From positions 1-64,000 of the forward strand of contig JAISZG010000013.1 of the NCBI GenBank assembly GCA_031269355.1: 64,000 nt of DNA. Direction: 5' to 3'. The stretch is from Oscillospiraceae bacterium (GTDB taxonomy: Bacteria; Bacillota; Clostridia; Christensenellales; Aristaeellaceae). The notes under the pieces were generated by a model. It was not told the origin of the DNA. It made no database searches and saw only the letters and a program-made list of their open reading frames with translations. Shown one piece after another: positions 14,567-51,338 of the stretch. Each line of letters begins with the position of its first letter. Position 1 is the stretch's first letter. A program made the translations under genes and the position numbers.

Positions 14567-14589
14567 ATCAGATATAATCCTTCCCATAA

Positions 14590-14870
14590 AATCATAATAA
14601 AAACCTTCATCTCTATACAGAGACGAAGGTTCTCTTCGCGGTTCCACTCTGCTTGGCGTATTCACGCCCAGCTCATTCGAATCCAAACAGATTCGTCTCC
14701 CTGTTACGGTGGAGTTCCGTCCGGCGCTACTTAGGTTCGGCTGTCGCCTCGCCTGTTGGTCCGACCGCTCCCGGGTCAGTTTCAACGAACTACGCTGCCG
14801 CCTCGCATCAACCGGCGGCTTTCTGAAAACGCGATCTTCCGTCTACTCGTCCCGATCCAAGCGTTTATCC
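14590..14870 (-). ncRNA. T-box leader (tRNA-sensing riboswitch)
   Basis: Read on the minus strand: a Stem I with AGTA near its base and a GGTTGATG distal loop (14806-14813); a specifier region around GAAACTGACCC (14773-14783); the T-box core AGAGTGGAACCGCG (14637-14650); then a terminator, AACCTTCGTCTCT / AGAGATGAAGGTT with a GTAT loop and T-run (14599-14631). The specifier is ambiguous by one base: CUG (Leu) if the base after it is the conserved A, ACU (Thr) if the frame is set by UGAA. Uncharged tRNA should promote readthrough into the acyl-CoA ligase gene. Confidence 0.88.
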
Positions 14871-15907: not shown

Positions 15908-16196
15908 AAAAAAATCCGGTTCCGGTAATTCAGCTGACCTGGTCTTTTACCCCACACTCGCCGTCTGTGAACATTGCCGCCGGATTCTCATCCGCGCACG
16001 CCGTTCCTCTCGAAAAGATATCCGGGAAATATATTGCCCGGTTCAACGCACGATTTCTCGTACGCCGCCATCTCTCCGGCCGGACTTACCCCTAGACCGC
16101 GCCATGCTCGCCGGCTCTCATTTTAAGCCGGGTTACGTGGATCGTTTTGCCCGCGACTGGCTTCGACTTACAACCACAGACCCGAAATTCGGAACC
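15908..16196 (-). ncRNA. Structured RNA of about 290 nt, class not recognised
   Basis: Non-coding, with its own promoter and a U7 end (15908-15914). The 5' GGTTCCG pairs with CGGAACC just before the U-tract (15918-15924), closing the molecule. Internal hairpins read directly: CCGGCT/AGCCGG, a 7-bp stem on a GAAA tetraloop (CGTACGA/TCGTGCG), CCGGG/CCCGG, and GGAT/ATCC on a GAGA tetraloop. It lacks the conserved cores of RNase P, tmRNA, 6S and SRP RNA, and it does not fit the cobalamin riboswitch. It may be a free RNA or a leader for the zinc-ribbon gene. Confidence 0.65.
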
Positions 16197-34116: not shown

Positions 34117-35109
34117 CTAACTTTTTTTGTAAGCGCCGCTATCGAACCCCGATGAGCTAGCCACCAGATATAACGGTCTGCCCTGTACTTCTTGATATAT
34201 GCGCCCGACGTACATTCCCACTACGCCCAGCGCCGCCAATATCCAACCCGTGCACTCGATGAAAATGGCGCACACAAGCGATAACAAGAATCCAAAATCG
34301 CCTCCGGCGCGCCCGGCAAGCGCTAAGATAAGCAACCCAAGCAGCCACACAATGCCTGCGGCTGCGGCACCGACGCCGGACAGCGCAATCCAGCCAAGCG
34401 GCTTGAGAGAAAACGAAAATACGCCGTCTCCCGCGAGTTTCAGCATTTTCCCGAGCGGATATTTCGTCTCGCCCGCAAATCGCTTGTCGCGTTCGAATTC
34501 GACCGCAGTCTGCCGAAAGCCAATCCACGCGAATATTCCGCGCAGGAAACGATTATGTTCGCGCATTCCTCTAACGGCGTCCGCAGCCTTGCGAGACACA
34601 AGCCTGAAATCTCCCGTATCCGGCGGAATATAGCACGACGTAAGTTTATTAAGAAGCCTGTAGAATCCCCACGCGGTAGCTTTTTTGAACGCGCTGTCGC
34701 CCTCGCGGCTTATGCGCTTGCCATATACCACGTCGTACCCCTCGCGGTATTTGTCGAGCATAGCGGGAATCAGCTCGGGCGGATCCTGTAAATCGGCGTC
34801 GATTATTACGATCGCGTCCCCGCTAGCGTAATCCAGCCCTGCGGTTACAGCGAGCTGGTGCCCGTGATTTCTCGCAAACGATACAACCTTAACATGGTCG
34901 TCCTGTTTTTGCAGTTCCGTCAGTATCGACAGCGAACGATCCTGACTGCCGTCGTCCACGAATATCAGCTCATATTGAACGCCTATATTTTGTATCGTAT
35001 CTGTCAAACGGCGGCTGCATTCCGTTATGCTCGCCTGTTCGTTATATACCGGTATAATTATTGATAAATATATATCATCAGCGCTAGAGCCCAATTGCTT
35101 ATCCATCAT
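34117..35109 (-). CDS. GT2 glycosyltransferase with C-terminal membrane helices (GtrB/DPM1-like)
   Basis: Probably transfers a sugar from a nucleotide donor to polyprenyl phosphate. It has 330 residues: a GT-A domain (SIIIPVYNEQASI, FVDDGSQDRS, IDADLQDPPE with the metal-binding Asp residues, PPDTGDFRLVSRKAAD), then two hydrophobic helices after about residue 230. The start (ATGATGG at 35109/35106) overlaps the mazG stop. It interrupts the usual mazG-hup neighbourhood, suggesting a local insertion. Confidence 0.9.
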   Translation of the reverse strand: MMDKQLGSSADDIYLSIIIPVYNEQASITECSRRLTDTIQNIGVQYELIFVDDGSQDRSLSILTELQKQDDHVKVVSFARNHGHQLAVTAGLDYASGDAIVIIDADLQDPPELIPAMLDKYREGYDVVYGKRISREGDSAFKKATAWGFYRLLNKLTSCYIPPDTGDFRLVSRKAADAVRGMREHNRFLRGIFAWIGFRQTAVEFERDKRFAGETKYPLGKMLKLAGDGVFSFSLKPLGWIALSGVGAAAAGIVWLLGLLILALAGRAGGDFGFLLSLVCAIFIECTGWILAALGVVGMYVGRIYQEVQGRPLYLVASSSGFDSGAYKKS

Positions 35110-36557
35110 GAAGGGATTTCCTCCGCTTTCGATTGGTTCCAATACCGGTCGAGTTCATCCGGGCTCATATTGCGCATATCTCCGCCGACTGCGGCGACAG
35201 CTCGTTCGACACGTTCGAAACGGCGGATGAATTTATCCGTAGAGCCGGTCAGCGCAAGTTCCGGTTGCACTCCCGCAAGGCGCGATACGTTTACCACGGC
35301 GAACAGCAGATCTCCAAGTTCTTCCTCTAAGCGCGCGTGAGGTTCGTTCTTGCCTATCGCATTCCGCACTTCTTCCGTCTCTTCTTGAATTTTGAATAGC
35401 GCATCGAGCGCCGTGCTAAAGTCGAACCCGACGCCGCGCGCCTTCTTTTGTATTTTGGACGCGCGCATAAGCGCCGGCAGCTGGCGCGGAACATCCCTCA
35501 TAACGGCGGTTTGGGTATCTAGTTTCTTTTCAATCTTCTTTATCGCTTCCCAATTAGTTATAACCGCATCACTTGTGCTTGCAAGAACATTTCCAAATAT
35601 ATGAGGATGCCTACGTATAAGTTTTTCGCATATTCCGCTCGTCACGTCGAGGATATCAAACCCGCCGTGCTGTTCGCTAACGCAGGCGTGAAATACAACC
35701 TGCAGCAGCGAATCGCCCAGCTCGTCCGCGAGTTTATCGGGATCGTTCATATCTATCGCCTCGATTACCTCGCAAGCTTCCTCCAGTATATATTCGCGCA
35801 GCGATTGATGATCCTGTTCGCGATCCCACGGACACCCGCTCTGCGGATCGCGCAAACGAGCCATCACGTCTACCAGATCGTAAAAGTCTCGACTAGCGCG
35901 CGATTCCACAGGAACCGGCGGCACTACAAGCCATGACGTATGATCGAACGCTCGTTCATGATCCAGTTCGGACAGCGGTATGGCGACGACCGATGCAATC
36001 GAGCCAAGCGTAACCAAAAGATCAGGAGGATAAACGGTAAGCAGCTTCAGCTTTACTTCGCCCGCCGTCAGTCGGTCGTTTAATTCCGTCACCACCAAGC
36101 CCATATTGGGATTTAGCCTCGCGCCTGGCAGTTCAGCCGCGCAAACGGATACGACGCCTTCCGGATACGACGCGCCCGCCGCAGCCAAAGCGCGCTCGGT
36201 ACGGCCTGCGCCAGGCAGCGTTTCTACTGCTCCGCCGGGCAGCAGCGCGTTCAGACGCCGCACGCTTCGATCCGACGCGGGGTCCGCGACCGCGTAGGCG
36301 CACGGCGCGGCGTCTATAACGGCGCGCGCTATCGCGTCCGACAGCTCGTCGAAATCATCATATTGAGAATAAAGGGAGTCCAGCGCTTCAAATGATTTGC
36401 CGTTCTTTTTAAGCCAAGCGGACGCGGGATTCCGCGAGGTGCGCAGTATAAGTCGCGGCGCGTTCAGCAGCGCGTCGCTTGCTCTAATCGTCAGCTCCCG
36501 CCAATCATCCGCAAGAGGTATTACGGTAACTCGCGGTTGTTCGACCGTCATCATCAT
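35106..36557 (-). CDS. mazG: YabN-like protein: degenerate tetrapyrrole-methylase domain fused to MazG
   Basis: 483 residues. The C-terminal half is a nucleotide pyrophosphohydrolase: DLVDVMARLRDPQSGCPWDR, REYILEEACEVIEAI with EExxE metal ligands, a DELGDSLLQVVFHA helix, and a second MazG copy (EETEEVRNAIG, LEEELGDLLFAVVNVSRL). The N-terminal half aligns with the tetrapyrrole-methylase fold by shape (AGEVKLKLLTVYPPD, AFDHTSWLVVPP), but its SAM loop, normally GLGPGD, reads PLADDW. It starts among three ATGs at 36557-36551 after AAAGGA, just past the spoVB stop. Confidence 0.9.
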   Translation of the reverse strand: MMMTVEQPRVTVIPLADDWRELTIRASDALLNAPRLILRTSRNPASAWLKKNGKSFEALDSLYSQYDDFDELSDAIARAVIDAAPCAYAVADPASDRSVRRLNALLPGGAVETLPGAGRTERALAAAGASYPEGVVSVCAAELPGARLNPNMGLVVTELNDRLTAGEVKLKLLTVYPPDLLVTLGSIASVVAIPLSELDHERAFDHTSWLVVPPVPVESRASRDFYDLVDVMARLRDPQSGCPWDREQDHQSLREYILEEACEVIEAIDMNDPDKLADELGDSLLQVVFHACVSEQHGGFDILDVTSGICEKLIRRHPHIFGNVLASTSDAVITNWEAIKKIEKKLDTQTAVMRDVPRQLPALMRASKIQKKARGVGFDFSTALDALFKIQEETEEVRNAIGKNEPHARLEEELGDLLFAVVNVSRLAGVQPELALTGSTDKFIRRFERVERAVAAVGGDMRNMSPDELDRYWNQSKAEEIPS

Positions 36558-36582
36558 CAATCCTTTGTTATATATTAATACA

Positions 36583-38205
36583 TTAATCGTCGCGGGCTTT
36601 TGCCGCGCGCTGCAAACGCGCCTTTCCTGCAATCCTATCCAGCGCGGGAAACTGAGCGAGATCCGCCCGCCTCACCGCGCCCGTCAGCGGCGCCGCCACG
36701 ATATACGCGCCTACTCCCAATACGACGAGCAGCAATGTTTTAACGCTTGAGTCGGAACCTATAAAGCGGATCGATAAGGCGACTGCAATCGACATTACTA
36801 GCGTGGCCAGCGCGGGGCGAATCAGCATACTCCCCCACTCCACTCGCACCTCCGTTCGCTTGAACGTGTATGCCAGGTTGATGCCCGCCGATATCGTATA
36901 ACACGCCAGCGACGCGATAGGCGCTCCATATATATTAATCCGAGGCGTTCCGATCAGGAAATAATTAAGCGCCGCCTTAACCGCCGCACCGACTAGCAGC
37001 GTATACATGGGTATTTTCTGCGCGCCCATTCCCTGCAGCACTCCCGTCGTAGCCTGCACAAGTATAAACAAAGGAATCGTAAACGCGCCTATCGACAGCA
37101 GGCGACCGGCAGTCCTGATTTCCTCCAGCGGATAGCGCGGGTACAGCAGCGCGACTATGGGCGTTGACAGCAGCGACATGCCAAGCGCGCACGGCAGCCC
37201 TATCAATATCGACAATCGCAGGCTCAGCGTCGTTTGCTCTCGAACTTCGCGCTTATCTCCTCGAGATCTTGCGGCGGAGATGGTTGGAACAAGGCTCATA
37301 GCTACGGCTATCGCCAGCGCGGTAGGCACGTTAAGCAGCGACAGCACCGATCCGGATTGCAATCCATACAGCGAGCGAGCCTGTTCGCTTGTAAAGCCCG
37401 CGCTCTGCAGGCGGTTTAATATCATAGCGGAATCGATTGTGCCGACCAGCGGCACGATCGCCGCTCCAAGCGTGATAGGCACCGCTATGCGCAGCATGCG
37501 AACCCACAGCGGCGAGCGCGTTTCCATCGCCTCTCCACGCGGCTCGGCGGTCGCCTTCCCGACATATTTTACTCGATTGCGATTAACCGTTATAAGCATA
37601 TATAATAATGCCAATGCCTCGCTGATCGTGATGCCTAGCAGCGCGCCGGCGGCCGCGTGCACTACGGACACCCGCAAGCCCAGTATCGACAGCGGGAACG
37701 ATATTATCACCTTACCCAGCTGCTCAATCAGCTGAGAAACGGCGGTCGGCGCCATCGAGCAGTGTCCCTGCATATAACCTCTATATGCAGACATAATGGA
37801 TACGATGAGCACCGACGGCGCAATCATCAGAAAGCCTATCCGCGCGTCCGCAGCGCCGATGCTTTCGGCAAGAAAGCGGCTGCCCAACGCCATCAGAAGG
37901 GCTAGCGGCAAGCCGATGCCGCCCAGCATCTTAAGAGCCGTACCCAGCACGCGGGACGCGCCTTGCTCATCGCCGCGCGTTTCAGCCTCCGCCACCATGC
38001 GGGATATCGCCACGGGCAGCCCTGCGGACGATAGCGTCAAAAGAAGGTTATATGTGGGATAAACCGCCTGATAAAGCCCTATGCCCTGCGAACCTATCTG
38101 CGCCGAAAGCGATACTCTAAAAACCATTCCGATAACTTTGCATATTAATCCGGCAGCGCCCAGCGCGGTAAACCCACCCAGCATCGTTTTGCGTTTTTCT
38201 GTCAT
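36583..38205 (-). CDS. spoVB: SpoVB/MurJ-type polysaccharide flippase
   Basis: A polytopic membrane protein of 540 residues (about 14 helices) of the MOP superfamily. It has GLICKVIGMVFRVSLSAQIG, GSQGIGLYQAVYPTYNLLLT and GLPVAISRMVAEAETRGD, as in SpoVB/YabM. SpoVB is needed for spore cortex peptidoglycan in Bacillus; relatives flip lipid-linked precursors in growth. GGGGAGG is 4-5 bases before the ATG. Conserved next to mazG. It is divergent from the TED-like cluster. Confidence 0.88.
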   Translation of the reverse strand: MTEKRKTMLGGFTALGAAGLICKVIGMVFRVSLSAQIGSQGIGLYQAVYPTYNLLLTLSSAGLPVAISRMVAEAETRGDEQGASRVLGTALKMLGGIGLPLALLMALGSRFLAESIGAADARIGFLMIAPSVLIVSIMSAYRGYMQGHCSMAPTAVSQLIEQLGKVIISFPLSILGLRVSVVHAAAGALLGITISEALALLYMLITVNRNRVKYVGKATAEPRGEAMETRSPLWVRMLRIAVPITLGAAIVPLVGTIDSAMILNRLQSAGFTSEQARSLYGLQSGSVLSLLNVPTALAIAVAMSLVPTISAARSRGDKREVREQTTLSLRLSILIGLPCALGMSLLSTPIVALLYPRYPLEEIRTAGRLLSIGAFTIPLFILVQATTGVLQGMGAQKIPMYTLLVGAAVKAALNYFLIGTPRINIYGAPIASLACYTISAGINLAYTFKRTEVRVEWGSMLIRPALATLVMSIAVALSIRFIGSDSSVKTLLLVVLGVGAYIVAAPLTGAVRRADLAQFPALDRIAGKARLQRAAKARDD

Positions 38206-38477: not shown

Positions 38478-40916
38478 ATGACGGATTCGATCTCCATGAC
38501 GCCCACCGATCCTATGGAACCAGAATTGGAATGCGATATCAACTCGACTTCCAACCTAAAAAACGTTCCGAATCGTCGTGGCCGCTCGGCAATACGGAAC
38601 GACGGCGGCGCGTCCGACGATACCGCAGCGGGCGAAGGCGCGCTTTCCGCAGCGTTGGATGCGGACGAATCATCCGACGAATCCGCCGCGCCAAAATATA
38701 GACGCCGCGCCTCCGCGAGCGCGCCGGAATCCTCGGCTTCGGCGGCGCCGGTCGAATGCGATCCCGGCGATATTGCCGACGAAACTACGCCTGACGAAAC
38801 GCAGCCCGCAGAGGATAAAGCGGGCGCGGAGTCCGATCCATATAATTATGATATCAAAAATAATATTGACGAATCTCCCGCCGATCAGGACGCGCCGCAT
38901 TGGCCCGGCGCTACGTTCCGCGCGGACACGACATCCGCCGCGTTAGAGCTGCGCGCCGACATAATAGCGCAGCTGGTAAATAACCCGGCGATCAGCACGG
39001 AAGAGCTGGAATCCCTCGCATCCGGGAAGCCGAGGGTAGGCCCGTGCGAGAGCGCTCCGTTCACGTGGAATGCCACCGTGTGCGAGTCTGGGAAGGAACT
39101 CTTCATTAACGAGACGCAAATGACTTCCTGCGATGTAATGGCTCGATATAAACTGGATCACTTCAGCGGGATTCCGCATCAATGGTATCCATTGCACGCG
39201 ATTGTCGACGGCGAGGATTGCCCTGCGTACTGTATGGAACACACTGCCGCATCACCAAACGGCACCTATCAATCGGTTAATTTTGCCGCCGCAATGGCAG
39301 GCAAGCCGCCCAATATCAAATGCGCCGTGGCATGGCTGCTCGCGAACGGCTATAATTGCACATCAAAAAAGCAACTCGCGGCCTGGCAAAGCGCGATGGG
39401 CGTATCCGGTTTGGACGACTATGATTCGCAAGCCGCCACGGCCGGCGCGATGTGGAAGCTTCTCGCCCAAATTCCGTCCAGCGGCATATTTCACGCATGC
39501 AAAGGTTACAGTGATAGTACTGTCGAACAAATAAACAAAGCTATGGAATTCCTGGTAATGAACGCAAAAAAATACGGGGACAGCCACGACTGCATGAGCG
39601 GCTCTGGCGACACCCCGAATTGCACGCACACCTGCGCCGGAACAAGCGACGACAGCACTAACCCGCCCGGCGAGGATCACTCCGGCAATATGCACGAGAT
39701 GATATCGTCCAACAGCGATAAGCCTGCAAAGGCAAGGGACGCGGACACCCCTATACTGTCGAACTGTCACTCCGACGGCCAGGCGCTAAAGGTTTGCGCG
39801 CACAACACGCGCGATCTAAACTGGGACGTAATGCCAAACGAAGTGCGGATTGAGTGCGGACGGCTTTTGGTCGGACCATACCGTATTCAAGCCAACGCGG
39901 AAAATGAAGTCGTTGAAGAGCGCATGTTTAAACTTGAGCCGTCCTGCGGCTGCACGGACAATTTCGACGCCGTAGTCTCGGACTTCTGCGGCAATCCGCT
40001 GGGCGATACCCCGTCTATCGGCAAAGAATTCTTCCTATCGCTCAAAGTTTCCGGACGTTACATTTGCTATACGATGTGCGTGAAAATCGTACTGCGCGAA
40101 TTCGCCGTATTGTTCACCGTAACAGACGCGGCCACGCAGGATTCAGGCGTAGGCGCGCGCCCGTGCTGCGTGGAGGAAATCTCCTGCATATGCACCTGCG
40201 TCGAGGTGCCCTACGAGGAGCCGATGGTTCCGCCACCGCTGCCGCCGGTAATCTTCTTCCCGCCCGCGCCTCCTCCTCAGCAGCCGGATCAACCGCCGCC
40301 CATTATCAATCCGCCTCCCATTCTCGTACCGCCGCCGCTGCCGCCCACGCCGCCGCCCTTGCCGCCGAATCCCCCGCCGATCGTCATTCCGGCGCCGACC
40401 CCGCCGATACCGCCGCCGATCGTCAATCCTACTCCTGTGCTGGTGCCTCCTCCTCCACCGCCTCCGCCGCCGCCGCCGGTCGTCACACCGCCGCCGGTCG
40501 TACTGCCCGCGCCTCCGCGACCAAATCCGCCACCGCCGCCGCCCATGCCGCAGCCCATAATAGTAGTGCCGCAGCATCCGCAGCCAGCGCCGCCGCCGAT
40601 AATTCTGCCTCCACCGCCGCCCGCTCCGCCGCCGCCGCCACCACCGCCGCCCGTTCTGCCGCCGCCTCCGCCGATTCCCCCACGTGCTCGGCCCGCCGTA
40701 AGGCTGCCTGAGCTTCCTACGTCGAGGTTAGCGGGCGTTGCGGTTCAGCCGGTTCGCCCTCCCAGACCGCCGCGTCCGCAGGTTCCCGGAAGGCCGCCCG
40801 CACCTGTATTCCCGCCGCCAGGCTTCCTTCCGCCACAATATGGCGCGCCTATTCCGCCGCCTCCCCCGCCTCCGCCCTGCACGGGCATCGGACCACCCGT
40901 TCCGCCGAACTGCTGA
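38478..40916 (+). CDS. P1: TED-like, Cys-rich, polyproline protein (thioester Gln lost)
   Basis: 812 residues, start ATG 38478 after AAGGAG. Disordered acidic N-terminus (1-200, with YRRRAS patches). TED-like module about 205-385: PAYCMEH with Cys252, KCAVAWLLANGY, and TAGAMW where TQxAIW is expected, so the partner Gln is Ala322. Linker with NCTHTC. Cys-rich module about 428-572, with VGPYR, SCGCTDNF, GRYICYTMC, RPCCVEEISCICTC. Then about 238 residues of proline runs ending PPNC. No signal peptide, membrane helix or LPXTG. P2 follows 62 bp on without a terminator. Family known for covalent adhesion; this role is inferred. Confidence 0.85.
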   Translation: MTDSISMTPTDPMEPELECDINSTSNLKNVPNRRGRSAIRNDGGASDDTAAGEGALSAALDADESSDESAAPKYRRRASASAPESSASAAPVECDPGDIADETTPDETQPAEDKAGAESDPYNYDIKNNIDESPADQDAPHWPGATFRADTTSAALELRADIIAQLVNNPAISTEELESLASGKPRVGPCESAPFTWNATVCESGKELFINETQMTSCDVMARYKLDHFSGIPHQWYPLHAIVDGEDCPAYCMEHTAASPNGTYQSVNFAAAMAGKPPNIKCAVAWLLANGYNCTSKKQLAAWQSAMGVSGLDDYDSQAATAGAMWKLLAQIPSSGIFHACKGYSDSTVEQINKAMEFLVMNAKKYGDSHDCMSGSGDTPNCTHTCAGTSDDSTNPPGEDHSGNMHEMISSNSDKPAKARDADTPILSNCHSDGQALKVCAHNTRDLNWDVMPNEVRIECGRLLVGPYRIQANAENEVVEERMFKLEPSCGCTDNFDAVVSDFCGNPLGDTPSIGKEFFLSLKVSGRYICYTMCVKIVLREFAVLFTVTDAATQDSGVGARPCCVEEISCICTCVEVPYEEPMVPPPLPPVIFFPPAPPPQQPDQPPPIINPPPILVPPPLPPTPPPLPPNPPPIVIPAPTPPIPPPIVNPTPVLVPPPPPPPPPPPVVTPPPVVLPAPPRPNPPPPPPMPQPIIVVPQHPQPAPPPIILPPPPPAPPPPPPPPPVLPPPPPIPPRARPAVRLPELPTSRLAGVAVQPVRPPRPPRPQVPGRPPAPVFPPPGFLPPQYGAPIPPPPPPPPCTGIGPPVPPNC

Positions 40917-40978
40917 CGAGCGACGGTTCATCAGCGGTTATGATAATCTGGCCGTGCGCGGCCTAAAGGAGTGCTAGC

Positions 40979-43084
40979 ATGCCGGATACAGACAGCCGCG
41001 CATACGACGAAACTAGTTCCGAAGAAATTATATCTGGAGAAGAAACTTCCGGAGAAGCGACTGCCGAAGAAACGCTTTCTGAAGAAACGACTTCTATAGA
41101 AACGGCGTATAACGAATCGAACGCCTATTACTCCCCCGATATACCCGGCATTGATTTGCGCGAAGGAAATTCTTTGCGCTGCCTGGACGACTCGCCGCTT
41201 TTTAGTTGGAATCCGACAACCTGCGGAAAAGGGCATCATGTAGTTACCGAAAAAAATGATGGATATACTTGCGCCAATAGCCCCACGGTTTCCGATCAAT
41301 GCCCCGCCGGCGCAGGCGCAAGCGGCATGCAGTTTAAGGGATTTGGCTTTACGCGCGGTTTTTACCCTATTCATGCGAAGCAATGCGAGGGAATCAACGT
41401 TCCATTATACTGCATGGATCACCATGCGAAATCTCCAAACGCAACAAGCCCTTCTTTAAGTTTTGATGAAGCCGCCCCCGGCGTTGGACCGGAGAGCAAG
41501 TGCGCGATAGCATGGGTGTTAGCAAACGGGTATAACACATACACGCATACAAGATTAGGCGAATGGTTCTCCGGATTAGGGGCAAGCGGCGACTGCCTCG
41601 ACGCATTCGTCATCACACAGGCGGTCGTATGGACCCTACTCGGCCAAGTGCCGTCCGACGCGCGATTTTCAAAATGCGGCGGAGGCGCTGCACCAGTGTT
41701 GAATAAAGCGTACCTAACCCTGCTGCGTATGGCGACAGAATACGGAAATACGCACGATTGCAAAAGCGGTTCAGGAGATACGCCCGCATGCCAGTGCGAC
41801 TGCACCAGCGACGTTCACTCCGGCGACATCGACGAGATGACGCCATCAAATTCAGGCGAGACCCCTAAATTCCGCAACCCGAACGAACCCGTGCTGTCCA
41901 ACTGCGACGCGGACGCGCAGAGCATAAAGGTTTGCGCGAGCAACACGCGCGACCTTACATGGGAAGTGGTACCCAGCGAACTTCGAATCGTCTGTTCGCA
42001 TATTATCGTGGGACCAATTCGCGTGAAGGATACGGCAAACCCCCATTACAACGAATCCACATCGCCAGGCGACGAACCTGTATTCAGAATAGAAGCGACT
42101 TGCGGCTGCTCCGAAGGATTCAGCCATAAGTTTACCGATTATTGCGGAAGCGAGCTAGAAGACGGCCCAAAGGTAAACGAAGATTTTTATGTTATGATGC
42201 CCATAACAAATATGCAGATGTGCTTTACTATCTGCACCAGGATAATACTGCGCGAATTCGCCGTATTTTTCATAGGCGCAATACCTGGGGAGCAAGTATC
42301 CGGTTTGGCCGCGAGACCATGCTGCGTACCTGAAGTCGCGTGCATCTGCATTTGTGTTGAAATTCCTTTGGAACCGCCCCCGCCGCCGCCGCCACCACCG
42401 CCAATCGTGTACTTTCCGCCGCCGCCGGTACAGCCGCCGCCCAGACAGCTGCCGCCAATTTATAATCCGCCTCCCGTGCTTGTCGCGCCGCCGCAACCGC
42501 AGCCGCCCGACTACGTCCCGCCGCCGCCGCCGATCGTCGTCGATCTGCCGCCGCCGCCAGAACTGCCGCCAATTATAAATCCGCCCAGCGTTCTGGTTCC
42601 GCCTCCGCCGCCCCCCCCGCCGCCGCTCCCGCCGATCCAACCGCCTCCGCCCGTGATCCAGCCGCCACCTCTCCCGCCGCCTCCTCCGCCGCCACCGCAG
42701 CCGCAGCCGATCGTCGTGCTTCCGCAGCCTCCGCGACGTCCGCCGCCCCCGCCGCTACAACCGCCACCCATAATAGTGCAGCCTCCCCCGCCCCCGCCTC
42801 AGTTGCCTCCGCCGCCGCCCGTTCCCCCGCCCAGGCTGCCAAGGCCGCCGGTGCGAGTCGTCATCGGACCGCAGATCCCGCCCCCGCCGCCCGTTCCGCC
42901 GCGCAGAGGGCTGTATGGCGCACCGCAGCCCGCCAGGCCTCCCGCCATACCGCCGCGCGTTCCATACCCGTGGACACCCGGTATGCAGCCACCTGGAAGG
43001 CCGCCCGCCGTTCCCGGTTATCCTCCAAGACCCGCGTACCCGCCGCCGCCGGGTACGATAATTCCGCCGCACGATCGGTGTTAA
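40979..43084 (+). CDS. P2: TED-like, Cys-rich, polyproline protein (intact Cys-Gln pair)
   Basis: 701 residues with AAAGGAG 8 bases before the ATG. A short acidic N-terminus has EETxSEE-type repeats (20-45). TED-like module: LYCMDHHAKSPN with Cys145, KCAIAWVLANGY, and ITQAVVW with Gln214, so an internal thioester is possible. CQCDC linker. Cys-rich module about 305-455 (VGPIR, TCGCSEGF, MCFTICTRIILREFAVFF, RPCCVPEVACICIC). Polyproline tail about 465-701 with NPPPVLV- and NPPSVLV-type modules. No export signal. Closely similar to P1 throughout; the pair is an operon ending at the 43092-43139 terminator. Confidence 0.87.
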   Translation: MPDTDSRAYDETSSEEIISGEETSGEATAEETLSEETTSIETAYNESNAYYSPDIPGIDLREGNSLRCLDDSPLFSWNPTTCGKGHHVVTEKNDGYTCANSPTVSDQCPAGAGASGMQFKGFGFTRGFYPIHAKQCEGINVPLYCMDHHAKSPNATSPSLSFDEAAPGVGPESKCAIAWVLANGYNTYTHTRLGEWFSGLGASGDCLDAFVITQAVVWTLLGQVPSDARFSKCGGGAAPVLNKAYLTLLRMATEYGNTHDCKSGSGDTPACQCDCTSDVHSGDIDEMTPSNSGETPKFRNPNEPVLSNCDADAQSIKVCASNTRDLTWEVVPSELRIVCSHIIVGPIRVKDTANPHYNESTSPGDEPVFRIEATCGCSEGFSHKFTDYCGSELEDGPKVNEDFYVMMPITNMQMCFTICTRIILREFAVFFIGAIPGEQVSGLAARPCCVPEVACICICVEIPLEPPPPPPPPPPIVYFPPPPVQPPPRQLPPIYNPPPVLVAPPQPQPPDYVPPPPPIVVDLPPPPELPPIINPPSVLVPPPPPPPPPLPPIQPPPPVIQPPPLPPPPPPPPQPQPIVVLPQPPRRPPPPPLQPPPIIVQPPPPPPQLPPPPPVPPPRLPRPPVRVVIGPQIPPPPPVPPRRGLYGAPQPARPPAIPPRVPYPWTPGMQPPGRPPAVPGYPPRPAYPPPPGTIIPPHDRC

Positions 43085-43091
43085 CAAAAAC

Positions 43092-43139
43092 GCGGCGGCG
43101 GAAATCGCAATCGCCTGCGGCACTAGACCGCCGCTTTTT
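43092..43139 (+). terminator. Terminator of the P1-P2 operon
   Basis: GCGGCGG (43092-43098) pairs with CCGCCGC (43128-43134), followed by TTTTT. A second 9-bp hairpin, AGGAGGCGC/GCGCCTCCT, is at 43153-43175. The remaining bases to 43437 hold no gene and no promoter I can name. Confidence 0.75.
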
Positions 43140-43437
43140 ACAAACACAATACAGGAGGCGCGGTATGCGCCTCCTCGTCGTTGTATCTTCTGTTTACCTT
43201 ATACGTGAACTTTCTATTGATCCTTTGATGATTCTTTAAGCGCCAGTTAATTTACGGATGAGCCCCCACACGAAACAAGGCTTGTTCTATTTAACATTTT
43301 CAATACTCCGCGCATACGCTATTAAGGTTCCTCACATACCCAATTTGACAAACTGCCGAGAAATCGAGCGCTGATTTCGCTGATGTGCTTGATATATAAG
43401 CGCCTGATATATTCGAAGATTCAAAGGAGTGAACGGA

Positions 43438-46266
43438 ATGGCTGAATCAAGCATACTGCCTGGAACCGAACCAGAACTCATCGGCGCCGCGACGGATACT
43501 CCGTCCGCCTGCCAGGATGGTTCGAATGATTCTGCGGCTCCAACAGTTCGCCGTTCATCCAGAAAGCGAAATTCGAAGAAGCCGCAGCCGACGCAATTGG
43601 ATATGAGCGATCCAAATCCCTTGCCTGTGCCGGAATCCGTAAGCGAGGATCTCAAGCACGCCAGCGCCCCAAGGCGCAAACCGCGCAAACGCTCGTCCAC
43701 TGCCGCGTCTGCGGATACGACGGCGCAGGTTGAGGAACGTATTGCTCCAGCGTCCGCGCGCGACCAGGAAAACATGTCCGCAGACGCCACCGCGTCGCAG
43801 ATCAACGCCGACGCGTCCGACGGAGCATACGGTGTATCGAACCTGTCGCGCAGTTCAAACGCTCAGCCAGGCGCCGCGATGAAGGCAGTCGCCTACGATC
43901 CGTTCGAGCAGCCGTCGAACGAACCGGATATTTATGGCAATATAGAAATTAGCAATGATGAAGATTTGGCCGCGCTCGATAATAAAATAGCGCTCAGCCT
44001 AGCCGCCACGTCGCCGGATGCAGACCGAGATCCGACTTCCATTGCGGACGACGCAAGAGAGAGAATCGAAATCGCGCAAGGCCTGCTTCGCAACGTGAAT
44101 ATAAGCACCTCACAATTATCTGATTATAATCAATCGAACGGCGCGTATTCAACTGCGGCGTCGCCGCAAACATTGAGTAGCGTCGGCAATGTGTCGACCA
44201 TCCGCACCAACCCGCAAATCACCAGGATCACTCGCGAAGATGTAACAAGAGCGCAAGGGGAATTAAGTCAGGACGTAGTGGCCGGCGGAACGGGCATGAC
44301 CTGGGAGAAGGTGAGCATCGATCCTGGTAAATCCTGCGAAACGAGACAGTATCGCGTTTGGTTCGCAGACGACACTGACGTCACGGAACTTGATTCGTTC
44401 ACCACAATAAAAGACGGAGTTGAGCAAGTCGGATACTGCATCGATTTCCGTGCGGAAGCGCCGAACGGGTCATATCGCAGCGTCGAACCGGGCGTAGCGG
44501 CAGACGGATCGTCTCCAAGCTCTCGCTGCGCGATCGCATGGCTGCTTGGCAACGGATATCATAACGACACTGATTTAGCCGCATGGCAAGCCGCGCTAGG
44601 CGTCTCCGGACTCACGGAATTGGACGCTCAGTATGTAACGCAGCTGGCCATCTGGGTATGCCGCGCAAAGATTATGACGTCCGACTATCATTTTACGACC
44701 TGCGATCCAAGCATAATGCGCCCGGAGCATCCTTGGGAGCTCGATGAAGCACCCGGCACGGTGCACCCTCCGATAGATTCGGTGACGGGATTGCAGCCAG
44801 CCGATAACGCCGAAAATCTAGAAAAGGCCACGCGCAGGCTGGTCGAAATGGCCACGGCCTACGGCAGCACGCATTCATGCGAAAGCAGAACCGGCGACGT
44901 ACCACATGGCATAAACGATCAAGTAACCGGCGACAATCCAGACAGCGCAAGCGGAAGCCTTGAAAATATGACCGCCTCCAAATCCAGGGGCGCGCCTAAA
45001 AACGGGCGCGGAAACGGCATGCCAGTCGTGTCTAACTGCAACGCGCCCGCGAACTCAATATCGGTTTGCGCCCAGGATACTACAAGCATCACATGGGAAG
45101 CGTTCCCCAATGAAATGCGCGTGGTATGCGGTCGTATGATGGTTGGGCCGTTTAAGTTCACCGCCGAAGCGGATAACATGAAGCCCGATTCGGCAAGCTT
45201 TAACGCCGAGGCGATATGCGCGTGCGTGGACGGGTTTGGGTACAGCTTCGCGGACGGCTGCGGCGTGCCGCTCGAGGACGGCAAAAATCCAAAAAGCGGC
45301 GAAGAATTCTACATCCTTCTTCGCATAATCGACAGCTTTATTTGCTTCCGGCTATGCGTCCAAGTTTTGTTATATGAAACGCTGGTATGGTTTTTGACCA
45401 CCTACAACCCCAGGCAGCAGGATATCGGAACGCGCACTGGCGGTCGCGAAGTGCCGGAAGTCGCGTGCATGTGCGTATGCATTCAGATACCGCCCGCTTC
45501 TGACGACGCGTTCCCGCCGACTCCACCGGCGTTCATGCCGCCGCCTCCGCCACCTCCTCCACCGCCTCCTCCGCAGCAGCCCGCGATAATAGTTCCGCCG
45601 CCGATTATCGTGACGCAGCGGCAGCCACCTCCGCCGCCGCCACCACCGCAGCAGCCTTCTACTCCTGTGATAATAATGCAGAACAATCCGCCGCCTCCGC
45701 CGGCGATAATACATCAACCGCCAATGATTATGGCGCCGCCTCCGCCACCTCAACCGCCAGCGCCTCCGCCGCCGCATCGGGTTGTGGTCGCGCCGCCGCC
45801 CCCGCCGCAGCCGCCAAGGCCGCAGCCCCCTCCACCGCCGTCCGTTATCCTTCCGCCGCCGCCTCCACCGCCGCCGCCGCAAAGATCGCCTATATTCCCG
45901 CCGCCGCCACCGCCGCCGAGGCCGCGTCCCACCATGCCTCCGCCTCCGCCGCCACCGCCTCCCGAACCGCCGGTCGTGATGATTCTGCCTTCGTACGCGC
46001 CGCCGCGACCGACAATCAAACGACCGCCGCCGCCGCCCGGCGCCTTCAGGCCTGCCATTCCGCCCCGCGCCCCAAACCCGTGGCCTGCCGAATCGTACCG
46101 CAGGCCCGCGCAGCCGCCGCAGAGATACGCGCCTCCCGGATGTCCGCCCGGATTCGTGCCGCCATACCCGCATCCGGCTGAATCGCCGCCGTTCGGCAGA
46201 CCCAATCCGCCGTACAATGGCTCCGCCACACCCGGCAACGGAAGCGATTGCGATCCAAATATGTAA
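43438..46266 (+). CDS. P3: TED-like, Cys-rich, polyproline protein (intact Cys-Gln pair)
   Basis: 942 residues, the largest paralogue. ATG 43438 has AAAGGAG 8 bases upstream. A Ser/Asp-rich N-terminus of about 290 residues carries basic patches (SSRKRNSKK, KPRKRSST). TED-like module: GYCIDFRAEAPNGSY with Cys334, RCAIAWLLGNGY, VTQLAIW with Gln402, so both thioester residues are kept. Linker without the CxC seen in P1 and P2. Cys-rich module about 530-685 (VGPFKF, ICACVDGFGY, FICFRLC, VACMCVC). The polyproline tail of about 258 residues has the longest uninterrupted runs. No export signal. P4 starts 20 bp after its stop. Confidence 0.87.
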   Translation: MAESSILPGTEPELIGAATDTPSACQDGSNDSAAPTVRRSSRKRNSKKPQPTQLDMSDPNPLPVPESVSEDLKHASAPRRKPRKRSSTAASADTTAQVEERIAPASARDQENMSADATASQINADASDGAYGVSNLSRSSNAQPGAAMKAVAYDPFEQPSNEPDIYGNIEISNDEDLAALDNKIALSLAATSPDADRDPTSIADDARERIEIAQGLLRNVNISTSQLSDYNQSNGAYSTAASPQTLSSVGNVSTIRTNPQITRITREDVTRAQGELSQDVVAGGTGMTWEKVSIDPGKSCETRQYRVWFADDTDVTELDSFTTIKDGVEQVGYCIDFRAEAPNGSYRSVEPGVAADGSSPSSRCAIAWLLGNGYHNDTDLAAWQAALGVSGLTELDAQYVTQLAIWVCRAKIMTSDYHFTTCDPSIMRPEHPWELDEAPGTVHPPIDSVTGLQPADNAENLEKATRRLVEMATAYGSTHSCESRTGDVPHGINDQVTGDNPDSASGSLENMTASKSRGAPKNGRGNGMPVVSNCNAPANSISVCAQDTTSITWEAFPNEMRVVCGRMMVGPFKFTAEADNMKPDSASFNAEAICACVDGFGYSFADGCGVPLEDGKNPKSGEEFYILLRIIDSFICFRLCVQVLLYETLVWFLTTYNPRQQDIGTRTGGREVPEVACMCVCIQIPPASDDAFPPTPPAFMPPPPPPPPPPPPQQPAIIVPPPIIVTQRQPPPPPPPPQQPSTPVIIMQNNPPPPPAIIHQPPMIMAPPPPPQPPAPPPPHRVVVAPPPPPQPPRPQPPPPPSVILPPPPPPPPPQRSPIFPPPPPPPRPRPTMPPPPPPPPPEPPVVMILPSYAPPRPTIKRPPPPPGAFRPAIPPRAPNPWPAESYRRPAQPPQRYAPPGCPPGFVPPYPHPAESPPFGRPNPPYNGSATPGNGSDCDPNM

Positions 46267-46286
46267 TCATAAGGAGTGTGCTCAAG

Positions 46287-47264
46287 ATGCGTGAACGGAA
46301 GCATTCGTCCGGAACAGAAGCCGACGTATCCGCGATCGAAAACGCGGCGATTGAATCGACCGTGGATAGCTCCGTCCAGCCTGAGCGCGTTCAGCGAAAG
46401 CGTCGCTCGCCTGCCGCCGTCGGCAAATCGCACAACGATGAATCGGCGCGGCAGCCAGACGACACGTACGCCGCTGATATGGCAGCAAATCCTCCGCCGC
46501 AATCCCAATCGGCTTTCGCAGCGCCCAGCCAACCGGACATCGTCTCCGACGTCGCGGTGGTGCCAATCGCCGACGCGTCAGATTACGACAGTGAAAGATA
46601 TTCCGATCTGCCAAAGAGGGCGTTTAACAATCTATGGCTTGCGGAGCCGCTGCGCTACATACGGGCTATGCTTCCGCCGAAAGTTACCGCGCCGGAGTTT
46701 GAGTCGATACCAAATCTCGACTCGGGAAGCATATATATCGATAACATTCGAATCGACCCGCAGGAATCCTGCGACTCCTCCGGCTATCGACTCGCCGACG
46801 GACGCGCGCTGTCAATTCCATCCATGACCGTACAATTCAATGGCCAAATCGCTCCGGCCTACAGCCTTAGCAGGGATGGAAGCGGCCCGCTAGACGCGCT
46901 CGCCAGAGCGGACGCGCGCGTTCAATGCGAGGTCGCGTGGCTCATAGCAAACGGCTTTGGAAACGATACGGACGACGATGCCTGGCAGCGTGAGTTAGGA
47001 GTAGAGGGGCTAGCGCAAATTGATGAATACTACGCCACTCAAATCGCTATTTGGATGGTGCTTGGGCAAACGCCGATGGACACTCGCGTAATTCCGTGCC
47101 GCGCCGATAACGCCAGGCTGGCCTCGCAGGTGGATACGGCCGCGCATGCGCTGCTTGAGAAGGCGCGAGCCTTTTCCGATTCGACATGGTTTACTAACGA
47201 ATTCAATCCCGAAACGAAAGGGCGACGCATTCGATTCAGCCGCGAATCCTCCATTCGGAATTGA
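46287..47264 (+). CDS. P4: TED-like module alone (thioester Cys replaced by Ser)
   Basis: 325 residues. ATG 46287 is 10 bases after AAGGAG. N-terminus disordered with QRKRRSP. The TED-like module is complete, but PAYSLSRDGSG has Ser193 where the others have Cys (AGC for TGC, one base); QCEVAWLIANGFG and ATQIAIW with Gln252 are present. The Cys/Ser-to-Gln distance is 59 rather than 68-70. The protein ends soon after the TED (RRIRFSRESSIRN), lacking the Cys-rich and proline modules that P5 supplies. Its stop lies in a tandem 15-bp repeat. Confidence 0.82.
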   Translation: MRERKHSSGTEADVSAIENAAIESTVDSSVQPERVQRKRRSPAAVGKSHNDESARQPDDTYAADMAANPPPQSQSAFAAPSQPDIVSDVAVVPIADASDYDSERYSDLPKRAFNNLWLAEPLRYIRAMLPPKVTAPEFESIPNLDSGSIYIDNIRIDPQESCDSSGYRLADGRALSIPSMTVQFNGQIAPAYSLSRDGSGPLDALARADARVQCEVAWLIANGFGNDTDDDAWQRELGVEGLAQIDEYYATQIAIWMVLGQTPMDTRVIPCRADNARLASQVDTAAHALLEKARAFSDSTWFTNEFNPETKGRRIRFSRESSIRN

Positions 47265-47289
47265 ATCATATCAAATTGAATCATATCAA
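47261..47289 (+). repeat. Tandem 15-bp repeat at the P4 stop codon
   Basis: TTGAATCATATCAA occurs at 47261-47274 and 47276-47289, followed by the partly similar TTTGAATATTGAATTG. The first copy holds the P4 stop (TGA 47262-47264). It marks the break between the TED half (P4) and the Cys-rich half (P5). Confidence 0.75.
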
Positions 47290-47436
47290 TTTGAATATTG
47301 AATTGCTTTCAATCACCGGATGAGGTATGGAAGCGCGTCGATCTGCTTGACCGCTTACCATCAAAACGAAGCGCTGCGCATGCTCCCGAAATCGGACCAA
47401 GGCTTGTTCGCGCCCGGTCAATTAGGAGGAAAACAT

Positions 47437-49053
47437 ATGGCAGCTTGTAACGCAAATTCCCCTACGCCTTATTCAACGCCCTCCATTGCGCCGCAAAGCG
47501 CGAAATCGGTTACGCTCTCAAGCGGTTCTGCAGCCTGGACTAACTCACCGTCAAATAACGCTGTTTCATCTGTTGGCAGCAATTCGCCCGTTGATGGCGG
47601 TTCCATTAACGGCGAAGCTAACACCAACATAATCTTATCTTCATCCCGCGCCAACCGGGGTTTTGACAATCCCGGCGATTGTTGCGGGCTGACACTTCCG
47701 TTCCGCGTTGACTGTCGCGCCGACGCGCAGGGCCTATACGCATGCGCGCAAGATAAAGGAGGCGTCACATGGAGTACTGATCCCGTCCATATGCCCCATG
47801 ATGTGCGGCTTGTCTGCGGTCGTTTGCTGGTAGGCCCGTTTTACGCGACGGGCAGCGGAAAATTCTTTCTCGAATCTTCAATGTGCGGATGCACGGAACC
47901 GTTTTCCGGCTCGTTCGCCAACGAATGCGGAAGCCCCGCGAAGCCGGAGTTTGGTCAAGATTTTTGGGTATCAATAAAAATCACCGGGCGCTATATGTGT
48001 TTTAACGTATGCGTTTCCCAAACTTCTACAAGGCGCGACATTATGTTTGCGAAACCGGAGGCGAGCGACCAACTGCTGGCGTTCCGCTCGGAGCCGCGCT
48101 TCGCCAAGACGGATTCCTGCGTATGCGTTTGCGCGGAGGTTCCCGCCGAAGAAGAGATACCTCCCGCCCCGCCTGCCGCCGCGCCTATTTTCTACCCGCA
48201 GGCACCGAATCCGCCTAAGCCGCCGCCGCTGCCGCCTCAAATAATCAATTCAACGCCGGTTATACTGCCGCCCGAAATGCCGCCGCAGCTTCCGTCGCCG
48301 CCCCCTCCGCCGCGCGAGATATTGATCGAGCCGCCAATACCGCCGTTGCCTCGGCAAATTATCAATCCGCCGCCCATGACTATTCCGACGCCTCCGCCCG
48401 CGAGACCAGCGAAGCCGATAACCTTGGAGCCGCCGATATTATACACCTTCCCCGAGCCCCCTGCCCCGCCGCCGCCCGCGCCACCGCCGCCTCCTCCGAG
48501 GTTCGTGCAAGGGCCGCCCCCGCCCCCGCCTCCTCAGGCGGTGATACACCTGCCGCAGCCGCCGTCTCCGCCGTCGCCGCCAGCCGCGCCTCCTATGCGG
48601 ATTCCAGGCAGGCCTGCGCCGCCGCCCGTGGTTGTAGTATCGCTCCCCATGCAGCCCCCTCCCATTCCGCCGCGACCCGCCTGTCCTCCGGGATTCGTCG
48701 CTGGTGCGCGCCCATTCCCCATGCGCCCAACGTTCGCCCGCACTCCCCAACGACCGTTCAGATATGGTCAGCCGCCGATGTTTGGCGCCGTTCCGCTGCC
48801 ATACAATTCTGCTCCGATGAGCATGCGTCCGCCAAACTCGCCTCCGTTCGGACCGCAGCCTGATCCGTTTGGCTATACCCCTCCGACGCAGCCGACGTTT
48901 GGCCCGCAGCCGTTTGATATGTCAAACTGCGAAGAGTATACGTTTGGTCCTCATCCCGGCGATTCGTTCCCCGGCGCGTTCGACTGCGAGGACGACGAAT
49001 ATATTATTATTGAAGAATATGAATGTTCCCCCGAGTTGGATCGTCAGGAGTGA
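47437..49053 (+). CDS. P5: Cys-rich and polyproline protein without a TED
   Basis: 538 residues. ATG 47437 has AGGAGG 8 bases upstream, a strong site of its own. A Ser/Asn/Pro-rich N-terminus of about 80 residues replaces the TED. The Cys-rich module (about 85-235) matches the paralogues: PHDVRLVCGRLLVGPF, SMCGCTEPFSG, GRYMCFNVC, SCVCVCAEVP. The proline tail of about 300 residues becomes Phe/Gly-rich near the end and closes with an acidic stretch (DCEDDEYIIIEEYECSPELD) unique in the set. With P4 it equals one P1-like protein in two pieces. P6 begins 5 bp after its stop. Confidence 0.83.
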   Translation: MAACNANSPTPYSTPSIAPQSAKSVTLSSGSAAWTNSPSNNAVSSVGSNSPVDGGSINGEANTNIILSSSRANRGFDNPGDCCGLTLPFRVDCRADAQGLYACAQDKGGVTWSTDPVHMPHDVRLVCGRLLVGPFYATGSGKFFLESSMCGCTEPFSGSFANECGSPAKPEFGQDFWVSIKITGRYMCFNVCVSQTSTRRDIMFAKPEASDQLLAFRSEPRFAKTDSCVCVCAEVPAEEEIPPAPPAAAPIFYPQAPNPPKPPPLPPQIINSTPVILPPEMPPQLPSPPPPPREILIEPPIPPLPRQIINPPPMTIPTPPPARPAKPITLEPPILYTFPEPPAPPPPAPPPPPPRFVQGPPPPPPPQAVIHLPQPPSPPSPPAAPPMRIPGRPAPPPVVVVSLPMQPPPIPPRPACPPGFVAGARPFPMRPTFARTPQRPFRYGQPPMFGAVPLPYNSAPMSMRPPNSPPFGPQPDPFGYTPPTQPTFGPQPFDMSNCEEYTFGPHPGDSFPGAFDCEDDEYIIIEEYECSPELDRQE

Positions 49054-49058
49054 ACGAT

Positions 49059-51338
49059 ATGAATAAGCGGATGCGTCGATTCGAAATTGAGCCACCCGCC
49101 GTTGATTCAACGTGCCTCGTTCGCGCGCGGCACGCGAAAGCGGATTCGTTCGAAACGCCTGCACCCGCCAGCGAACAGCGCGTTCGGCGAGCATCGCGAT
49201 TCGCTTCGCTTTACGCGCTGTTGGAGTGCGCATACGAAAAACCGGAAGACTCGCAGCCTATCACCGCACGCCGCAGAAGGGTCGATATGCGCGCGGAGCT
49301 ATATGATAGCATCGCGCGCGGCGGCATGCATATTGATCATAATGTAGTTGATCCATCACAAATACATAATTCACATAATTATATCGAAGCAGATATCGAG
49401 CCGATAGTTGCAGAACCGCCAACCTCTGCCGAGGATTACGCGGCTCCGCTCCGCCCGACCGTACGCGTTGAAATGGCTAACGACGTGCTCATCGGCCCAC
49501 CGGGCGAACCGTTCGAAAACGTGCGGATTCATAATCAGCCGGACGATTCATGCTCAATAAAAGGATACCACCTAAACGATCCGCGTAACCAACGGATCAG
49601 CTATATATCAGCCGTAAATGACGGCGTAACCCTTCCCGCATATTGTCTGAATTATTTCCTGGACGCGCCGCACGGAACCTCGCATATAAGCGGCACGCTG
49701 GAGAGCGGCGTTATTGACGAGCCTCCTGAAATTCGCTGCGCCGTCGCGTGGCTGCTCGCGAATGGATATGGAAGGGGTACTGTCGTTTCCGAATGGCAAG
49801 CCGCCCTCGGCGCAGTCGGGCTGGACGCGAACGACGCGCGATTCATCACGGCGGCGGCGATCTGGCTTATTCAAGAACAGCTTGATCCCGCGGCACGATT
49901 TATTCCATGCGGAGCCGGAACATCGCAGGAGCATATTGACCAGCTGAATATCGCGCTGGAAAAGCTATTGGAACTGGCGAAACAGTATGGGGAAGATAAT
50001 CCCGACTGCGCGGGCGGAGACGGATACGACATGCACTGCGTGCCCGCGCCTGAAGACGCAGCATTAACACGCGGAACTGGCCGCGCTTCTGCAAGTAAAG
50101 CGGTCAAGCGTGAGACGGTAGAATTGATATCCCGCGCGTCCGGCAATTGCGGCACCGGCAGCCAACCCATAGCGGTATGCAAGACGGATAGCGAGAAAGT
50201 TAAATGGGCGAGCGTACCTAATATTATCCGCATAGTCTGCGGAAAACTGCTCGTCGGCCCGATAAGTTTCGAAGGAGCGGACGCAAGCGAAAGCGGCGAT
50301 CCACCGGAAATAACGCTCGAACCATGCTGCGCGTGCGGCGAAGCGTTCAGCTATCAATTCGCCGATTCCTGCGGCAATCCAACCACGCCAATGCCAGGCG
50401 AGGATTTCTATTTATTATTAAGGATCACCGGGCGATTTCTTTGCGTTACACTATGCGTTAATTATGTCGAATGGGCTACACACGTTTGGTTTATTATCAC
50501 GCCCGGTAATAAACAGAACGTGGGCACTCGTCAAAAATGCCGCATCGAAACGGCTGCGGAAGATATCGCGTGCATGACCATTTGCTTCTCCCTATTGGAG
50601 AATGAACCGCAGTTGCTTCCCGCTCCGACGCCTATATTTTATCCGCCCGCACAGCCGTGCGAGCCTCCCCCGCTTCCTCCTCCTATATTTAACGCTCCTC
50701 CCATCGTTATGCAGAGCCAGTGCCCTCCGCCCTATATGGCGCCCGCTCCGCCCCAGCAAATACTCGTCGCGCCCGCTGCGCCGCAGGCGCCGCCGCGCAT
50801 TATCAACTATCCGCCCGTCATTGCGCCGACGCTGCCCGCACCGTCGCAAGAGCCCCGGCTGATCGCGCATCCGCCAACGCTCGTCGATCAGCCGCCCCCT
50901 CCCCCGCCGCCGCGCATTCCGATTCAGCGCGAACCTGTTATGATATCGCTGCCGCCATATCAGTTTGCAGCTCCAGCGCGGCATGCGGTGACTTCGCCTC
51001 CGATTCTCACCGCCGAACAAACGCGCGGCGCATGCCCGCCGTACAGAACCGCACAGGCGCAGGCTTTCTCCTCCGATATGTCCGCGCGCGGTTGGAAGAT
51101 TCATATGCCCGGCTCGCATCATCCAGTAAACGCGGCTCCGCCGTTCCCCATTATCAGCGCTCCCCCGCCGCCGCCGTACGAATTCACTCCGCCGCCTCGC
51201 GAGCCACCGCCGCCGCCCGGTTTTATGCCTACGCCGCAATATCCCCCCGGCGCAATTCCGCCGCCGCACTGTTCTACCTCATTTCTGGAAGGTCACGCGC
51301 CAGAAGGTCGGTCGTCGAAAAACAATACTACTTCATAA
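49059..51338 (+). CDS. P6: TED-like, Cys-rich, proline-rich protein (thioester Gln lost)
   Basis: 759 residues. ATG 49059 follows AGGAG, which overlaps the P5 stop. TED-like module: PAYCLNYFLDAPHG with Cys196, RCAVAWLLANGYG, ITAAAIW with Ala265 in place of Gln. Cys-rich module about 360-520 (GKLLVGPISF, CCACGEAFSYQFADSCG, GRFLCVTLCVNYVEWATHVWF, ACMTIC); the end lacks the last CxC of the others. The tail is proline-rich but less pure, with Gln, Ala, Ile and Cys, and ends in a polar stretch with no anchor motif. Last gene of the P3-P6 string; the most diverged. Confidence 0.83.
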   Translation: MNKRMRRFEIEPPAVDSTCLVRARHAKADSFETPAPASEQRVRRASRFASLYALLECAYEKPEDSQPITARRRRVDMRAELYDSIARGGMHIDHNVVDPSQIHNSHNYIEADIEPIVAEPPTSAEDYAAPLRPTVRVEMANDVLIGPPGEPFENVRIHNQPDDSCSIKGYHLNDPRNQRISYISAVNDGVTLPAYCLNYFLDAPHGTSHISGTLESGVIDEPPEIRCAVAWLLANGYGRGTVVSEWQAALGAVGLDANDARFITAAAIWLIQEQLDPAARFIPCGAGTSQEHIDQLNIALEKLLELAKQYGEDNPDCAGGDGYDMHCVPAPEDAALTRGTGRASASKAVKRETVELISRASGNCGTGSQPIAVCKTDSEKVKWASVPNIIRIVCGKLLVGPISFEGADASESGDPPEITLEPCCACGEAFSYQFADSCGNPTTPMPGEDFYLLLRITGRFLCVTLCVNYVEWATHVWFIITPGNKQNVGTRQKCRIETAAEDIACMTICFSLLENEPQLLPAPTPIFYPPAQPCEPPPLPPPIFNAPPIVMQSQCPPPYMAPAPPQQILVAPAAPQAPPRIINYPPVIAPTLPAPSQEPRLIAHPPTLVDQPPPPPPPRIPIQREPVMISLPPYQFAAPARHAVTSPPILTAEQTRGACPPYRTAQAQAFSSDMSARGWKIHMPGSHHPVNAAPPFPIISAPPPPPYEFTPPPREPPPPPGFMPTPQYPPGAIPPPHCSTSFLEGHAPEGRSSKNNTTS

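Follow-up and report, generated by a model that had tools for sequence, protein, structure and literature searches.

In the published work considered here, thioester domains (TEDs) are parts of exported surface adhesins, nearly always with secretion signals (PMC4450167; PMC6194298; PMC8092201). In the class II domains a β-sandwich is inserted ahead of the C-terminal strand that bears the bond-forming Gln, and the Gln of the TQxxPhiW motif, a conserved helix motif, is neither the thioester residue nor essential (PMC4450167; PMC6194298). The class II TEDs BaTIE (6fwv), EfmTIE86 (6fwy), SaTIE (6fx6) and TIEpLS20 share with the family described here an N-lobe with a YC motif and a TQxxPhiW helix, as well as the β-sandwich insert and a Gln on the C-terminal hairpin, and the predicted fold of the family aligns with theirs over the whole domain. 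Unlike them, the family has no Sec signal, no isopeptide/ester stalk and no LPXTG motif; its TED copies have 17–24 core cysteines, and a polyproline tail replaces the Cna stalk. The class I TEDs Cpa, SfbI and CpTIE have the N-lobe fold and the position of the thioester Cys and Gln in common with the family, but they are devoid of the β-sandwich and, in contrast to it, are exported and sortase-anchored. By profile and predicted fold, then, the family is of the TED class, yet it is without the signal peptide and the LPXTG of the known exported adhesins.

The window (the whole stretch of 64,000 nucleotides that was analysed) carries the family between positions 38478 and 51338, as six adjacent ORFs on the + strand (P1 to P6), each preceded by a good Shine-Dalgarno site. 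Four are complete copies (P1, P2, P3 and P6) and one further copy is split into P4 and P5; the six adjacent genes of the preliminary description are therefore present, whereas the single order of modules that it gave to all of them does not apply to P4, the TED half, or to P5, the Cys-rich half plus polyproline. P1 (38478–40916, +; 812 aa) has a disordered N-terminus, a predicted class II-type TED with Cys252 (at 39231) and Gln554 (at 40137), and a polyproline tail from about residue 571. The same layout is seen in P2 (40979–43084, +; 701 aa; Cys145 at 41411, Gln439 at 42293), in P3 (43438–46266, +; 942 aa; Cys334 at 44437, Gln661 at 45418) and in P6 (49059–51338, +; 759 aa; Cys196 at 49644, Gln486 at 50514). 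P4 (46287–47264, +; 325 aa) consists of the TED N-lobe alone, with Ser193 (at 46863) in place of the thioester Cys and neither a Cys-rich half nor polyproline, while P5 (47437–49053, +; 538 aa), which is in a different reading frame and has its own AGGAGG site, comprises the Cys-rich half (Gln212 at 48070) and polyproline, without the N-lobe. The polyproline tails of P1, P2, P3, P5 and P6 are 242–305 aa long, with 30–52% Pro, close to the 240–300 residues first proposed for every member. By the gaps and a hairpin, P1–P2 and P3–P6 look like two transcription units, in agreement with the two operons suggested before: the P2–P3 gap of 353 bp contains a terminator-like hairpin (43147–43190, +; GGAGGCGC-GGTAT-GCGCCTCC), a likely operon boundary. 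Elsewhere in the same genome, one more complete paralogue, P7 (660 aa), is found at the end of contig C35.

The assignment of the first module to the thioester domains is borne out by profile searches and, for P3 and P6, by the predicted fold. P1, P2, P3, P4, P6 and P7 all score above the Pfam gathering cut-off of PF08341 (22 bits), with E-values of 8.8e-07 (P1), 3.2e-07 (P2), 4.5e-09 (P3), 2.5e-06 (P4) and 2.5e-05 (P6); since these five scores exceed the gathering cut-off, the match is well beyond chance. P5 falls below the cut-off in the same Pfam search, the Cys-rich half lying outside the coverage of PF08341, and only P3, among the cluster proteins, passes the cut-off of the NCBIfam TQXA domain. 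When a profile of the family TED was compared with the sequences of solved structures, the best match was a class II TED, 6fwy (E 9e-05). The YC(M/I/L) motif is kept in P1 (AYCM), P2 (LYCM), P3 (GYCI), P6 (AYCL) and P7 (AYCL), but not in P4, where Ser replaces Cys (AYSL). The TQxAxW motif, listed earlier as a common trait, is kept in P2 (TQAVVW) and P3 (TQLAIW) and is lost in P1 (TAGAMW) and P6 (TAAAIW).

Is the Cys-rich half a module of its own? This was the preliminary view, in which a TED adhesin carries a separate, uncharacterised Cys-rich module, and in its favour the Cys-rich half lies outside PF08341 and a profile built from it alone has no match among the sequences of solved structures. 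The predicted structures lead elsewhere. AlphaFold2 models were obtained for P3 (44299–45498; pLDDT 66.4, pTM 0.60) and P6 (49512–50600); the two models are of moderate confidence (pLDDT 66–68, pTM 0.56–0.60) and were built on shallow alignments made up of the window sequences and the related locus L018. The test set beforehand called for a TED fold and for Cys–Gln proximity in P2 and P3; the TED fold was found in the P3 model, which aligns with BaTIE (6fwv) at Z 17.1 over 252 residues (model residues 2–398; rmsd 5.2) and with EfmTIE86 (6fwy) at Z 15.1 over 260 of 280 residues (rmsd 4.6). Lower scores were obtained with the class I TEDs (Z 11.7–13.4) and with SaTIE, of class II (Z 12.0), and the next unrelated fold scored 7.6. 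For P6, 6fwy (Z 12.2) and 6fwv (Z 12.0) align over 235–243 residues, the other TEDs score 9.5–11.3 and the next fold 6.5. Both models match 6fwv and 6fwy across nearly the whole of the target TED, including the predicted β-sandwich insert and hairpin, which come between helix 3 and the strand with the Gln. Because they span complete class II TEDs, the Cys-rich part is predicted to supply the β-sandwich and the hairpin with the Gln; in the models, the N-lobe (barrel and helices) would be the "thioester module" of the preliminary description, and the Cys-rich part would be the β-sandwich insert followed by a long C-terminal hairpin, the two forming one class II-type domain and not two. With both halves aligned in this way, and with the sole co-conserved Gln (see below) sitting in the Cys-rich half, a separate module is highly improbable.

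The co-conservation alignment comprised 16 rows from eight genomes. A single Gln is kept in all nine Cys-positive copies with data at that position, and no other Gln is so kept; it is Arg in all four orthologues with Tyr or Phe in place of the Cys, although these four make up one clade and count as about one event. The Gln is present even in the very divergent copies of genomes G027 and G034, in which little else of the Cys-rich half is recognisable. By arithmetic from the alignment ends, which assumes that the last 8–12 aligned residues are free of gaps, P3 Gln374 and P6 Gln335, as numbered in the models, coincide with Gln267 of CpTIE (382 and 343 being aligned with 275) and with Gln575 of Cpa (385 with 586, and 347 with 587), and lie one residue off Gln261 of SfbI. 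Gln267 of CpTIE and Gln575 of Cpa are known thioester residues. The Cys-to-Gln spacing is 290–327 residues in the complete copies of the cluster, as against 171–204 in BaTIE, SaTIE and EfmTIE86. The fold and the Cys/Gln residue pair are well supported, and in P1, P2, P3, P6 and P7 the predicted pair, we infer, probably forms an internal thioester reactive with amines. The Gln of TQxAxW, to which the preliminary description had assigned the bond, was rejected as the thioester partner: the literature speaks against it (PMC4450167; PMC6194298), and P1, P6 and the copy from genome G023 have lost TQ but retain the Cys, P1 and P6 keeping the probable Cys/Gln pair.

Some members appear to have given up the chemistry. 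Judged by their sequences, P4 and P5 represent a split, thioester-dead copy that would be unable to form the bond. Orthologues that lack both the Cys and the Gln occur in a single genus, in four of its genomes, and have a dN/dS of 0.19–0.24. Since these dead orthologues are under purifying selection, the fold does more than carry the thioester. Their persistence at a dN/dS of about 0.2, along with the Ser for Cys in P4 and the splitting of that copy, would agree with a fold kept as a Cys-rich structural scaffold in which the thioester is dispensable; however, every other copy with data retains both Cys and Gln, even the very divergent ones of G027 and G034, and we hold this alternative to be decidedly unlikely. 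The dead orthologues (L018:1494, L020:6350, L036:9005 and L038:154) also have an upstream element in common, GACATGTT followed by an ATACACT-like box, the spacing of which fits neither σE nor σK.

The absence of a signal peptide and of a sortase motif, as first described, was confirmed for the whole set. No signal peptide was found in P1–P7 by 12-residue hydropathy near the N-terminus: the peak value did not exceed 1.27 in any of the seven family members encoded by this genome or in their relatives, whereas a solute-binding protein encoded in the window, taken as a control, reached 2.43. No LPxTG-like motif was found in P1–P7. Nor can a missed start hide a signal, because the reading frames stay open for no more than about 22 codons ahead of the called starts; a wrong start codon was thus ruled out. 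In the same bacterial family, ordinary TED proteins carry clear signal peptides, with h-region scores of 2.7–3.6, and contain few cysteines (one locus, cut near its N-terminus, was excluded from this judgement). The characterised TED proteins are surface adhesins (PMC4450167; PMC6194298; PMC8092201), and proline-rich regions often accompany TEDs in the literature, as would be expected if P1–P7 reached the vegetative cell surface or the medium by a non-Sec route and acted there as ordinary covalent adhesins. Against such a route, the signal, the membrane anchor and the sorting motif are all absent, the TED proteins of close relatives carry normal signal peptides, and no secretion genes were recognised among the neighbours scanned; we regard it as unlikely. 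A Cys at position 3 or 4 recurs in the relatives: several, among the N-termini compared (L018:1494, L020:6350, L036:9005, L038:154 and L021:1092), start with MPCN, and P7 and P5 start with MACS and MAACN, respectively.

Because an export signal is missing, and because of the Cys content and the genome context, we would tentatively place the proteins at the spore, and we give about an even chance to the reading that proteins of the P1–P7 type are made by the mother cell and are thioester proteins of the spore surface, with the polyproline as a stalk. Having no Sec signal, they would most likely be synthesised by the sporulating mother cell, to be built into the outer spore layers, where the 17–24 core cysteines would link them through disulfides, as in other Cys-rich exosporium proteins. 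The polyproline tail of about 250 residues may serve as a stalk or anchor, and the thioester could attach the spore to a surface through a covalent bond, or could serve to cross-link the proteins of the coat. More tentatively, we envisage a self-gluing spore, possible though not the expected outcome, that displays mother-cell-made thioester adhesins on polyproline stalks, with neither Sec nor sortase, and whose locus keeps dead and split copies as well. Spore surfaces characteristically contain Cys-rich proteins (PMC7333573). CsxA, CotY/ExsY and CdeC are exosporium proteins of spore formers that are likewise Cys-rich, a comparison of how the proteins may work and not of sequence relationship. 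We know of no thioester domain in any of them. A literature search combining thioester domain with exosporium found nothing, and one combining it with spore found nothing relevant among the papers listed.

The spore coat is covalently cross-linked. This, the lack of an export signal and the Cys-rich core would also suit internal covalent cross-linkers, the thioester joining coat or intracellular proteins through their lysines with no target outside. The known TED target bound by SfbI is, however, a host protein, fibrinogen (PMC4450167), and a purely internal function seems improbable. A family that has no export signal, and in which the class II insert is Cys-rich and the tail polyproline, would mean that TEDs also work at a site supplied from the cytoplasm, for which the spore surface is the most plausible candidate. 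It would offer a ready test of covalent chemistry in spore attachment, and its conserved dead paralogues let the structural and the chemical roles of the fold be separated.

When 308 genomes of the bacterial family were searched with the profile of the Cys-rich half, 8 of them, representing 5 of 50 genera, were found to hold the proteins; among 396 genomes sampled from the order, the window's own was the single one with a match. Spo0A is present in all eight genomes that hold the family and SpoIVA in seven of them; σK is over the cut-off in G000, and the genes for Spo0A, SpoIVA and σK are all found in the window's genome. SpoIVA also occurs in seven of nine genomes whose only TEDs lie outside the family, most of these TEDs having signals, and co-occurrence with sporulation therefore does not discriminate. 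Divergent from P1 lies the gene for a SpoVB-like MATE flippase (36583–38205, −), which is also found beside the copies of a related genus (L036, L020), and next to it that for a YabN-type methyltransferase/MazG pyrophosphohydrolase (35106–36632, −), a conserved neighbour; the synteny of the two genes is shared by the window's genus and genus g29. A gene for a sigma factor of the SigF/SigG type converges on the G027 copy, and P7 lies near pheS/pheT, away from sporulation genes. Among the cluster proteins there was no Pfam or NCBIfam match to coat-protein families. A scan for σE and σK promoters gave an exact match to the σK consensus of B. subtilis, the only one in the window, 117–145 bp upstream of P3 (43293–43321, +), but the pattern has 34 matches genome-wide and 34 with the reversed-pattern control, and for want of enrichment the match is not counted as promoter support.

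One G463 copy adjoins two large proteins that have SpaA/prealbumin-like C-terminal domains and Cys clusters but no signal peptides (L039, 2695–8000, −). These SpaA/β-helix-like neighbours were rejected as a partner system, near-full-length relatives being found only in genus g29 and none in the window's genome; they are possibly another family of signal-less surface proteins. In the G027 copy (L021, 1092–2747) the tail is made of Cys-Pro repeats (CPACPACPDCPACPPPKPCPPC) and not of plain polyproline. Elsewhere in the window are a raiA RNA (RF03072, 141.8 bits; 15925–16190, −) and a T-box leader (RF00230; 14616–14868, −), the latter at the start of a gene for an AMP-binding enzyme (12827–14785).
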